DNA of 34,864 bases, taken from contig CALVQV010000007.1 in NCBI GenBank assembly GCA_944358325.1, positions 1 through 34,864 of the forward strand, written 5' to 3'. The stretch comes from an uncultured Bacilli bacterium. Lineage in GTDB: Bacteria > Bacillota_I > Bacilli_A > RF39 > UBA660. Positions within the stretch are counted from its first letter, which is position 1, and each line of letters begins with the position of its first letter. The notes under the pieces are model-generated. The model was not told the DNA's origin and did no database searches. It worked only from the letters and a program-made list of their open reading frames with translations. Positions 4,246-30,703 of this stretch are shown here, in pieces. The translations under genes were made by a program, and so were the position numbers.

Positions 4246-4854
4246 ATGAAGAAGAGAATTATCTATGGTTTACTTATAGCGCTTTTAATAGTTGTTATAT
4301 GTATCTGTGGAGATAAAGTGATAAAAAAACCAGAAGCTGTTATTGCTTCATCAGAACTTCAAGAAGCTAATAAAAAAGAAAGCGAAGAGATTATAGAACC
4401 TGTAGCAGAAGTAGAAGAAATAGAAGAAGAACCATTATATTATGGTTTAACTTATGATGCTTTAGTTGAACAAATAAATAAATCACTAAATTCAACAGTT
4501 AGTGGATATGGTGAAGTATTTGTTAGTAAATCACTTGAATTAGGTGTAGATCCATATTTAGCTGTAGCTATTATGTTACATGAAACTGGATGTATGTGGG
4601 ATTGCAGTAATTTAGTTAAAAAATGTAATAATGTTGGTGGAATGAAAAGTGGTTCATATTGTTCTGGAAGTTCTTATGGTAAATTTAATACTTTAGAAGA
4701 CGGTATTAATGCTTATATTGAAAATTTATATAGAAATTATGTATCACAAGGATTAAACACTCCTGAGTTAATGCAAAGAAAATATACGGGGTATAGTAAT
4801 AGTTCATGGAGTAGTAAGGTTAATAACTATATTAATATAATTAAATCAAAATAA
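4246..4854 (+). CDS. Membrane-anchored glucosaminidase/lysozyme-like protein (paralogue 2)
   Basis: 202 aa. A GAAAGAGGT ribosome binding site precedes the ATG. Residues 5-21 form an uncleaved-looking signal anchor, followed by an acidic linker rich in Glu (about 38-63). The C-terminal domain (about 68-202) has HETG with Glu113 as candidate catalytic acid and N-N-V-G-G-M. It matches the domain of the protein at 103-720 almost throughout, including the Cys116/Cys120 pair (CMWDC), and carries two extra cysteines (KKCNN, SYCSG). The likely role is peptidoglycan hydrolysis at the outer membrane face. The paralogue pair looks like a duplication now separated by the SDR-dfx-clpB genes. Confidence 0.75.
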   Translation: MKKRIIYGLLIALLIVVICICGDKVIKKPEAVIASSELQEANKKESEEIIEPVAEVEEIEEEPLYYGLTYDALVEQINKSLNSTVSGYGEVFVSKSLELGVDPYLAVAIMLHETGCMWDCSNLVKKCNNVGGMKSGSYCSGSSYGKFNTLEDGINAYIENLYRNYVSQGLNTPELMQRKYTGYSNSSWSSKVNNYINIIKSK

Positions 4855-7410: not shown

Positions 7411-7420
7411 AGTCCTTTTT
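7399..7420. terminator. Bidirectional terminator
   Basis: AAAGGACT (7399-7406), loop TTAA, AGTCCTTT (7411-7418), T-rich on the plus side. It separates the convergent genes on each side. Confidence 0.85.
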
Positions 7421-7823
7421 ATATACATTCAACGTATGTATCTTGTAAGCATCTTAAACAGCATAAGCAATCTAAATCCATTGTAAAAAATGAATTTGTA
7501 GCTGTAAATGTGCCATCTTGTTCTGTTAATACTCTAAATGTAGCACAATTACCATCTACTTTTTCAACTCTAAATACATTAGATGTTGTTTGTTCTGTAG
7601 CATCTTTACTTACAGGCATTTGCCAAGCTGTTCCATTACCACAACAAGTATATAACATTACAGGACGTGTATTGCAATTTAAAACTGTTTGATTGCAACC
7701 TAAAAAGCCTCTATCACATGTATCTAGAACATTTCCAGAACATTCAGAGTTTCTTTGAAGGATATTTATAACTTCAAGTATTTCGGCAACACAACTTGTA
7801 TTTTTATTTTTTTTGTCACACAT
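7419..7823 (-). CDS. Spore coat protein of the CotY/CotZ family
   Basis: 134 aa with 14 cysteines. Recognisable family signatures are the FRVEKVDGNCATFRVL segment and the MDLDCLCCLRCL segment near the C-terminus; the Bacillus subtilis crust proteins CotY and CotZ carry closely similar stretches. These proteins assemble into disulfide-linked sheets in the outermost spore layer. The N-terminus is polar, with no signal peptide, as expected for a mother-cell protein. GGGTGG lies shortly before the start at 7823. No clear SigA promoter is visible, consistent with mother-cell sigma control, but I could not identify a SigE or SigK site. Confidence 0.88.
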   Translation of the reverse strand: MCDKKNKNTSCVAEILEVINILQRNSECSGNVLDTCDRGFLGCNQTVLNCNTRPVMLYTCCGNGTAWQMPVSKDATEQTTSNVFRVEKVDGNCATFRVLTEQDGTFTATNSFFTMDLDCLCCLRCLQDTYVECI

Positions 7824-19190: not shown

Positions 19191-19229
19191 AAAATAAAAA
19201 CTGATAATTCTGTTATCAGTTTTTATTTT
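19191..19229. terminator. Strong bidirectional terminator
   Basis: A perfect 17-bp stem (19191-19207 with 19213-19229, core CTGATAA/TTATCAG) and loop TTCTG, with A/T arms that act as T runs in both directions. It ends the tRNA unit and the convergent nuclease gene. Confidence 0.92.
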
Positions 19230-20008
19230 ACTATCTTTTCAAATAATTTGTCCAAATATTTTTCTTCAATTCTAAAACTTGTTCCGTGGTCATAAATTTG
19301 TCCTTTTTTTGGACCGCTTTTATATGTACCTATATTAAATACTACTTTTATTTTGCCTTCTTCAATTAGCATTAAAAAATTCTTAAAATTTTTTAATTTG
19401 TAAAAATTAATGTTTTCATATTTTACTATTTCTGTTTTATCCATAATTTTGCTTTTTGCTTTAACTAATGCTAAATAATTTAATTTTTTGTTTAATCTTT
19501 CTTTTAAATTTTCAAAATCCCAATAAGATTTTTTATCAATATTTCCATTAATTGTATCTATTATGTATAAATAAATCCTTTCGTTTTTATAATCTACATT
19601 TAATTTATATGCAAATCTTGTGCCAATATTTTGATATTTGTTCGCCCATATATCACCCATTAATCTTTTATTGTTTTTATATTCTTTATCAGGATATCCA
19701 TAATTTTTTAATATTCTTTTATTTTCTGATAATTCTTCTCCTTTTAAACACATACAAAATAATGTTATAAATTTATCATTTCTTTTTGTTTTGATTTCTA
19801 TTCCTTTATAATCTGGTGCATCATTAAAGTCTTCTTTTTTTCCTATTAATGATTCAAAAGTATATCCTAAATTTGTTGGGCCTTTTCGCATTTCTTTTAT
19901 CCACCCTTTTTTCTTTATAATTAAAAATTTTTCATTTAAATCGTCTATATTGTTTTTGATATCCATATCTTTTAAATTCCTTTCTATTTCTATATAAATA
20001 TTCTCCAT
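19223..20008 (-). CDS. MvaI/BcnI-family restriction endonuclease, orphan
   Basis: 261 aa. The motif GPTNLGYTFESLIG with Glu52, followed by PDYKGIEIKTKR with Asp66, Glu71 and Lys73, is a PD-(D/E)xK active site of the MvaI/BcnI type; GWIKEMRKG upstream and YDHGTSFRI near the C-terminus also fit this family. Known members cleave short GC-centred sites (CCWGG, CCSGG) as monomers. No DNA methyltransferase lies within the window, which is unusual for a type II enzyme. It may be an orphan, a nicking or repair nuclease like MutH, or protected by a modification gene elsewhere. The gene is flanked by tRNA genes on both sides and is very AT-rich, which suggests horizontal acquisition. Confidence 0.82.
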   Translation of the reverse strand: MENIYIEIERNLKDMDIKNNIDDLNEKFLIIKKKGWIKEMRKGPTNLGYTFESLIGKKEDFNDAPDYKGIEIKTKRNDKFITLFCMCLKGEELSENKRILKNYGYPDKEYKNNKRLMGDIWANKYQNIGTRFAYKLNVDYKNERIYLYIIDTINGNIDKKSYWDFENLKERLNKKLNYLALVKAKSKIMDKTEIVKYENINFYKLKNFKNFLMLIEEGKIKVVFNIGTYKSGPKKGQIYDHGTSFRIEEKYLDKLFEKIVK

Positions 20009-28806: not shown

Positions 28807-28840
28807 AATAAAACCAAGCGTTTGCTTGGTTTTATTTTAT
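28807..28840. terminator. Strong bidirectional terminator
   Basis: A perfect 13-bp stem (28807-28819 with 28824-28836, core CCAAGC/GCTTGG) and loop GTTT, with A/T arms on both sides. Confidence 0.9.
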
Positions 28841-28849
28841 AGATAAATT

Positions 28850-29377
28850 TTATGATTGCATTTTTTTATAACCTACAAATATGACATCTTGTTTGTAAGT
28901 TATTATTGGTAAGTAAATATTTTTATTTTGTTTTAATTCTTTATAAGTTATTGTTTTAATTTTTTTACTTTTTAGAGTTGTGCTTGGTGTTGTAAATGGC
29001 GCTAGTTGTTTATATTTATTTATGATGTCTGGGATGTTTTTTGCTAATACAATATTTACATTGTCTTTAATATTTATAATATTTAGGAAATTTATTAAGT
29101 CATCATATTTTATATTTTCGTTTATGATGATTGTAGTTAAGTGATCAAAGTATAGTTTTTGGCTAGCTTGATTATTTAAATTATCATACATATCTTTATA
29201 GTTATTACCTTGACTACTTATTGTATCTACATAGGAATCTTTTTCGTTTGGAACGATATAAATACATGTTAAGTTGTTGTCTATGTATAAGCTTGTAACG
29301 ATGATTTCATTATTTATATCATTTGTACAACCTGTAATTAATATTGTTATAATCATTATTAAAATAATTTTTTTCAT
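28850..29377 (-). CDS. gerC: Short GerC-like germination lipoprotein
   Basis: 175 aa, less than half the usual 370-400 for Ger(x)C subunits. Signal peptide with lipobox LITG-Cys17, so the protein is expected on the outer surface of the spore inner membrane. The body resembles the first GerC domain (EIIVTSLYIDNN, SQKLYFDHLTTIIINENI, NVNIVLAKN). The second and third domains are absent, and the reading frame ends cleanly with no visible frameshift remnant before the terminator. It overlaps gerA by four bases (ATGA). GGGGGAT serves as ribosome binding site. It probably acts with GerA in a reduced receptor. Confidence 0.75.
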   Translation of the reverse strand: MKKIILIMIITILITGCTNDINNEIIVTSLYIDNNLTCIYIVPNEKDSYVDTISSQGNNYKDMYDNLNNQASQKLYFDHLTTIIINENIKYDDLINFLNIINIKDNVNIVLAKNIPDIINKYKQLAPFTTPSTTLKSKKIKTITYKELKQNKNIYLPIITYKQDVIFVGYKKMQS

Positions 29378-30648
29378 TTTATCCCCCAAAAGTAGTTACT
29401 TTTTAATGTAGATAGACTGTTTAGATGAATAAATAAAATTATTGATGTAATAAATATTCCGGTTATTCCTAAAAAAGATGATGCAAATATAAAGATGTAA
29501 CGCCATGTTCTTAAGCCGTTGATAAAGTCAATGTCTGAAAATAGTAAGCTAGATATTGATGTTATGGCTACGATGATAACGGCAATAGGGGAAGCGATAC
29601 CTGCTGATACGGCAGCGTCTCCTAAGATTAGTCCTCCTACGATACTTAAGGAACTTCCCATTTTTGATGGTACTCTTATATCACCTTCGCGTAATATTTC
29701 AAACAATGTTACTAGTGTTAGGATTTCTACAATAATAGAAAATGGCAACATTCTGACTTGTCCAGATAGTGATATTAATAGTTGTAGGGGAATGATGTCT
29801 TTGTTGTATGTTGTTACAGCGATATACATGGCAGGTGTGTAAAGGGTAATAATGAAGGCGAAGAAACGAATAATTTTAGTAAATATAGAGTTTATTGTTA
29901 ATTCGTATTTGTCTTCGGGATTATTAAAAAATTCAAAGAAAGAGAAAGGAAGAATGAGGGCGAAGGGAGAGTTTTCCACAATAATTGCAATTCTTCCTTT
30001 TAATAAGTTAATGCATGTTAAGTCTGGTCTTTCTGTTGATAGTACTTTAGGAAATGTACAAAATTCTTGATTTAGTGATTTACGTATGTACCCACTATCA
30101 ATGATGCTATCGATTTTGATGTTTTTAATTTTTTGTTCGAGCATTTTAAGTTTGTTTTTATCTACAAGATTATTCATGTAGATAATTGATACATTAGTGT
30201 TTGTTTGTTTACCAATTGTATATGTGTTGATAGTTAGTTCTTCATTTTTTATTCTTTTACGAATTAAACCAATATTATTTAAATAGTTTTCATTGAAACT
30301 ATCTTTTGGACCTCTTATGACTGTTTCGCCACTTGATTCGCTTATGCTTCTATCTAAATATAATCTTGTTTCAATAGCGAGTAATTTATTGTTATATATA
30401 ACGATGGCAAAGCCACATGTTAAATAGTATGGTGTATCTTTAATTTGTATTTCGATAGTGTTTACATTGGGAATAAAGTTTTTTAAATCGTTGTGTTCAT
30501 AGTTGTTAATAATGTTTTTAATTAAGACATCGCTTATAGTGAGACTATTAGTGATACTTTCTAGATATATAATGTTAATGTTATTTTTGAGTGTGCGAAT
30601 TTTTAGGTCGCTTGTGTTGTGCATTAGTTTTTTTATTTGTTCAATCAT
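29374..30648 (-). CDS. gerA: GerA-type spore germinant receptor A subunit
   Basis: 424 aa. ATG 30648 follows CTGGTGAT. A soluble N-terminal region (about 1-220) contains NTNVSIIYMNNLVDK and IIDSGYIRKSLN. The membrane domain (about 230-420) has the conserved signature GRIAIIVENSPFALILPFSFFEFF and LREGDIRVPSKMGSSLSIVGGLILGDAAVSAGIASP. In B. subtilis the A subunits form nutrient-gated ion channels that trigger germination. The following gene is a short GerC and there is no gene for a B (amino-acid permease-like) subunit. The last codon overlaps the GerC start (ATGA). The N-terminal cytosolic part is shorter than in B. subtilis GerAA (482 aa). Confidence 0.92.
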   Translation of the reverse strand: MIEQIKKLMHNTSDLKIRTLKNNINIIYLESITNSLTISDVLIKNIINNYEHNDLKNFIPNVNTIEIQIKDTPYYLTCGFAIVIYNNKLLAIETRLYLDRSISESSGETVIRGPKDSFNENYLNNIGLIRKRIKNEELTINTYTIGKQTNTNVSIIYMNNLVDKNKLKMLEQKIKNIKIDSIIDSGYIRKSLNQEFCTFPKVLSTERPDLTCINLLKGRIAIIVENSPFALILPFSFFEFFNNPEDKYELTINSIFTKIIRFFAFIITLYTPAMYIAVTTYNKDIIPLQLLISLSGQVRMLPFSIIVEILTLVTLFEILREGDIRVPSKMGSSLSIVGGLILGDAAVSAGIASPIAVIIVAITSISSLLFSDIDFINGLRTWRYIFIFASSFLGITGIFITSIILFIHLNSLSTLKSNYFWGIK

Positions 30649-30682
30649 ATAATCACCAGTATTAGTATTAACCACAATATGG

Positions 30683-30688
30683 TATAAT
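30683..30688 (+). promoter_or_regulatory. -10 box of the methyltransferase gene
   Basis: TATAAT, 15 bases before the ATG at 30704. The -35 is poor. GGTGAG lies between as ribosome binding site. Confidence 0.5.
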
Positions 30689-30703
30689 ATTTATGGTGAG
30701 TTT

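Follow-up and report, generated by a model that had tools for sequence, protein, structure and literature searches.

A two-gene GerA-GerC unit with a single-domain GerC and no detectable B subunit in the Bacilli order RF39

The window analyzed here, a stretch of 34,864 nucleotides from the draft genome of an uncultured Bacilli bacterium of the order RF39, encodes a germinant receptor-like unit of only two genes: a GerA-type A subunit and, directly downstream, a lipoprotein that comprises just the first domain of GerC. In current models, B is both the nutrient sensor and the subunit on which the stability of A and C depends, and a conserved A-C pair without B departs from that. At roughly even confidence, we read the pair as a reduced but functional, B-independent ion channel of the spore membrane with a stub lipoprotein, derived from an A-C-B receptor.

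Results

The gerA gene (29374..30648, minus strand) encodes 424 aa, of which residues 4-422 matched PF03323 in a Pfam search (E 9.6e-125); the score of 417 bits (cut-off 27) extends over profile positions 2-439 of 466, the whole family domain. The N-domain of the structural model has the GerK3A/GerIA fold, with Foldseek matches to the solved A-subunit N-domains 9prb (E 6e-15) and 6o59 (E 1.7e-13), and the acidic pore-helix positions (E308, E321 and D323) are retained in the alignment. The protein groups with the receptor clade in a tree, far from the SpoVAF clade, which ruled out a SpoVAF identity. Among 32 aligned proteins, the PYLxP tail conserved at the GerA C-terminus is absent only from those of the window's own genome (G000) and the other genome of the genus (G001). 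A membrane helix of GerA starts with a VPFP motif, whose first residues are nearly always VPF in proteins from A-C-B operons, and LPF or LFV in the three B-less GerA proteins; the fourth position is Ser, Thr and Ser in G000, G001 and the relative G002, respectively. This position aligns with P326 of B. subtilis GerAA, numbered on a sequence checked against the published positions 299, 302 and 326. Ser or Thr at this site is not diagnostic as a hallmark of B-less receptors, Ser being found also in the A-C-B operons of G005, G019 and G026. Replacing P326 in B. subtilis is hypermorphic (PMC13170314).

An ATGA overlap joins the gerA frame to that of the GerC stub (28850..29377, minus strand, 175 aa), and both are real open frames. 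The stub has a lipobox cysteine (Cys17) and matches PF25198 (Spore_GerAC_N; E 7.7e-9, profile positions 3-100 of 176), and profile-profile alignment with hhalign placed its residues 1-164 on residues 5-201 of the ~395 in full-length family GerC (probability 98%, E 1e-13). Its TIGR02887 score is 35.8 bits, below the cut-off of 163 for full-length, three-domain proteins. PF05504, the C-terminal domain of GerC, had no match in the window's genome, and this domain was likewise not found in G001. The structural model (pLDDT 85) has two long strands at its end, so that the chain appears to end between domains and not within one. Foldseek searches with this model found nothing significant in the PDB and missed GerBC (3n54), which a sequence profile of the family GerC proteins did detect (E 2e-37). 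Just 55 bp lie between the gerC stop codon and the convergent gene that follows, leaving no trace of B or of the missing part of GerC at the site; this spacing, together with the same gene length in the sister genome, ruled out a frameshifted full-length GerC or a pseudogene. The first-pass annotation had described a two-gene unit with an ATGA overlap and a GerC holding only its first domain, and these searches bear out both descriptions.

The same annotation had placed a strong terminator after the unit. A terminator-like hairpin does lie between the unit and the convergent gene (28807..28836, minus strand; 13 bp), with a fold energy of -16.4 kcal/mol that is 8 s.d. below shuffles (z -8.1), albeit just outside the interval given for the unit (28850-30648); a simple terminator scan did not have it among its hits. 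Because it is nearly palindromic, the hairpin is probably bidirectional and could serve both the two-gene unit and the 271-aa convergent gene on its other side. At the opposite end, alignment of the regions upstream of gerA in G000, G001 and G002 outlined a divergent promoter region (30649..30703, minus strand) with a sigma-G-like pattern in all three, making a sigma-G-like promoter plausible when judged by the sigma-G consensus.

The other genome of the genus (96% complete), also from an uncultured Bacilli bacterium, contains the same unit on contig CALVXF010000017.1, an independent assembly in which gerA (424 aa) and gerC (175 aa) stand in the same order among the same neighbors. A full-length, frameshifted GerC in close relatives, named in the first-pass annotation as grounds for doubt, was thus not found; GerC in G001 has the same length and no frameshift. 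The two species share 80% identity in GerA and 62% in GerC, both ungapped, and the translational overlap is preserved. Synonymous divergence (dS) between them is saturated for gerA and 1.83 for gerC, with dN of 0.117 and 0.267, respectively; dN/dS of gerC, ~0.15, is similar to that of flanking genes. As both genes are intact and unchanged in length despite so much synonymous change, these comparisons indicate purifying selection on gerA and gerC and, the sister species having retained the same pair, the pared-down unit is probably working rather than broken.

The genus is sampled by these two genomes, that of the window being a 1.08 Mb draft of 83 contigs, 76.7% complete. Neither had a match to PF03845 (GerB/Spore_permease). 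A second search used a profile of 20 B proteins from the family, sensitive enough to pick up the shortened B of G018 (E 4e-46); it gave one weak, short match to an FtsW/SpoVE-like protein in G000, nothing in G001, and only a DedA-like protein in G002. The lack of B proposed in the first pass therefore held up in the genome-wide search, and the B gene elsewhere that could have overturned it was not detected in G000 or G001 by these two profile methods. The reach of both methods is limited in one respect: a diverged multi-helix B-like gene lies directly upstream of A and C in G038 and G040, where PF03845 misses it and the family profile scores it below zero. These two genomes, B-less by Pfam, were ruled out as such by this gene, and absence of B in Pfam searches alone is accordingly not proof of absence; a B as diverged as theirs would escape the family profile. 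No multi-helix B-like gene of this type flanks the window's unit. The two loci (L086 1791-5213 in G040 and L088 2756-6094 in G038) are deep-branching B-A-C operons.

GerA is present in 32 of the 36 family relatives searched, and B adjoins A and C in 29 of those 32 (short in G018). B is absent from G001 and G002, and the contig of G024 ends inside C. Since a standard A-C-B operon is usual in the other genera of this family, the two-gene unit is a derived reduction of that operon and not a primitive minimal receptor. In the GerA tree, the genus of the window falls within the A-C-B clade; its branch is long, which can mean relaxed or changed function. At the syntenic site in G002 (L072 5824-7281), gerA stands alone; GerC and B have no match anywhere in that genome (92% complete), in which SpoVA and a CwlJ/SleB-type hydrolase are present. 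G002 is the sister of the genus with moderate support (82/90) in one GerA tree and is unresolved in another, so that B was lost either once or twice. L130 was dropped as a case of gerA alone, as its gerC runs off the contig. At L147 (6403-7586), GerC is split in two frames (205 + 157 aa) with B intact, by sequencing error or a recent break.

Half-length GerC (188-193 aa) also occurs together with a shortened B (256-271 aa) in G018 (L071 5117-7852), L138 (4992-7775) and L150 (4992-7773), in all of which the receptor genes overlap or are adjacent. A single origin of short GerC was rejected when all short-GerC rows were held together (p-AU 1.4e-4), and on this evidence the half-length GerC of these three arose independently of the window's reduction. 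That loss of GerC domains 2-3 accompanies loss or shortening of B in both lineages suggests that these domains serve B. G007 and G014 have SpoVA genes and no GerA, and G014 contains a GerC remnant with two in-frame stops (G014:C1:181617-181913).

SpoVAC/AEb and a CwlJ/SleB-type hydrolase (Hydrolase_2) are retained in G000, G001 and G002; in G000, SpoVAC/AEb lie on another contig (C5), and gerA is not in a spoVA operon. The window itself, from a genome of ~1.1 Mb (77% complete), also encodes a CotZ-like spore coat protein (7419-7823, minus strand; PF10612, E 6e-16), a DacF-like protein and a Gate-domain gene pair read as SpmA/SpmB from order and size. With SpoVA, hydrolase, CotZ-like, DacF-like and SpmA/SpmB-like genes all kept, spores are probably still made, and the order RF39 is predicted to form spores (PMC10868615). 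Replacement by Csp-type sensing, as in Clostridioides difficile, was ruled out by the lack of any match to PF00082 (S8-family Csp proteins) in G000, G001 and G002. PF11085 (FigP/YqhR) had no match in G000 or G001, and none either in class relatives that have SpoVAF, so that this search says little about a FigP partner. The window further contains an MvaI/BcnI-family restriction endonuclease (19223-20008, minus strand; PF15515, E 2e-41), beside which no methyltransferase was noticed among the neighboring ORFs, and two similar secreted glucosaminidase-like proteins (79-720 and 4246-4854) around a three-gene block.

Discussion

GerAB is the L-alanine sensor of B. subtilis and is required there for the stability of A and C (PMC8617281); GerA and SpoVAF/FigP complexes are inner-membrane ion channels (PMC11841064). 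In the pair described here, GerA would oligomerise in the spore inner membrane and form a cation pore, with the lipidated GerC stub on the outer face of GerA and stabilising it. Pore opening would release ions and lead, through SpoVA, to Ca-DPA release and then to action of the CwlJ/SleB-type cortex hydrolase. Lacking B, the pore would have no APC-type nutrient pocket to open it. Since what has gone is the subunit known to sense nutrients, gating may depend on something else; the trigger would most likely be another cue, such as ions, DPA or the state of the membrane, or else an unrelated partner, by analogy with SpoVAF, a B-less paralogue that is likewise not itself nutrient-gated. Only tentatively do we go as far as a receptor made of a GerA channel and a single-domain GerC and triggered without B, whose gating, free of an APC-type nutrient pocket, would have arisen when B and two GerC domains were deleted.

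A B-independent channel is favored because of the gene content, conservation in the genus, selection, the retained SpoVA and hydrolase genes, and the published orphan GerA proteins. The same genes, lengths and neighbors in G001, the pore residues kept, the failure of two profile methods to find B, the position of GerA in the receptor clade and the retention of gerA alone in G002 all argue for it. Against it stand the long GerA branch, the 77% completeness of the window's genome, the two-genome sample of the genus and the possibility of a diverged B escaping the profile, as well as the instability of A and C without B in B. subtilis (PMC8617281). That instability also speaks for a sensor in trans, be it a B-like protein that has diverged strongly or some other membrane protein encoded elsewhere in the genome, which would bind the germinant and gate GerA. 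We regard such a sensor as possible but doubtful: B diverges fast in the class, as the B of G038 and G040 missed by both profiles illustrates, and work cited in PMC5935672 has B acting from a separate locus in B. megaterium, where gerB is monocistronic; however, the family profile, which detects even the short B of G018, found only FtsW/SpoVE-like and DedA-like matches in G000, G001 and G002, B adjoins A and C in every other relative inspected, and such a sensor would not explain why GerC lost domains 2-3.

The alternative of slow decay, in which A and the C stub, left behind after deletion of B and half of C, linger before complete loss, would fit the long GerA branch and the family-wide erosion (gerA alone in G002, SpoVA without GerA in G007 and G014, the GerC remnant of G014 with its two stops). 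It is nonetheless unlikely, as both genes are intact and ungapped across saturated dS, gerC has a dN/dS like that of flanking genes, and the pore residues and translational overlap are preserved. The pair might instead serve spore formation rather than germination, for example in forespore ion or DPA balance. Sporulation efficiency appeared to be affected when the orphan gerXAO was lost (PMC5935672), and spore-maturation genes (dacF-like, spmA/spmB-like) are nearby in the window, but an spmAB neighborhood is common to GerA and SpoVAF loci of other Bacilli, and we think this role quite improbable. That B and the remainder of gerC were lost in assembly or annotation of a draft metagenome is conceivable for a genome in 83 contigs, yet hardly credible given a contig continuous across the site and the identical architecture, at 80% and 62% protein identity, in the independently assembled CALVXF010000017.1.

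The graded series of A-C, A alone (in a relative) and A-C-B (in many) lets one ask what opens a Ger channel. It also bears on the role of GerC domains 2-3, lost as B was lost or shrank in two independent lineages, and on how bacteria with small genomes wake their spores.

Like B. subtilis GerAA/GerAB/GerAC, the window's unit has an A subunit with PF03323 and a C lipoprotein directly downstream with an overlap, and it is nested in the A-C-B clade; unlike that receptor, it has no B, its C is domain 1 of 3, and its A lacks the conserved C-terminal tail. The G018, L138 and L150 receptors share a GerC that ends at the same domain boundary, but keep a shortened B and the GerA tail. As with SpoVAF/FigP of B. 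subtilis, an A-type channel (predicted here) occurs without a B subunit; in contrast to SpoVAF, the window's GerA lies outside the SpoVAF clade and the spoVA operon and has a GerC partner. The clostridial orphan GerA proteins (GerXAO of Clostridium botulinum group II; gerAA of C. perfringens) likewise lie apart from a B gene, and for germination such an orphan can be indispensable (PMC5935672). Those genes coexist with full Ger clusters. The window's gerA, by contrast, retains a GerC stub beside it, and its genome contains no further Ger cluster that includes a B gene. Precedent thus exists in the orphan GerA proteins; a conserved B-less A-C pair is an unusual natural experiment.
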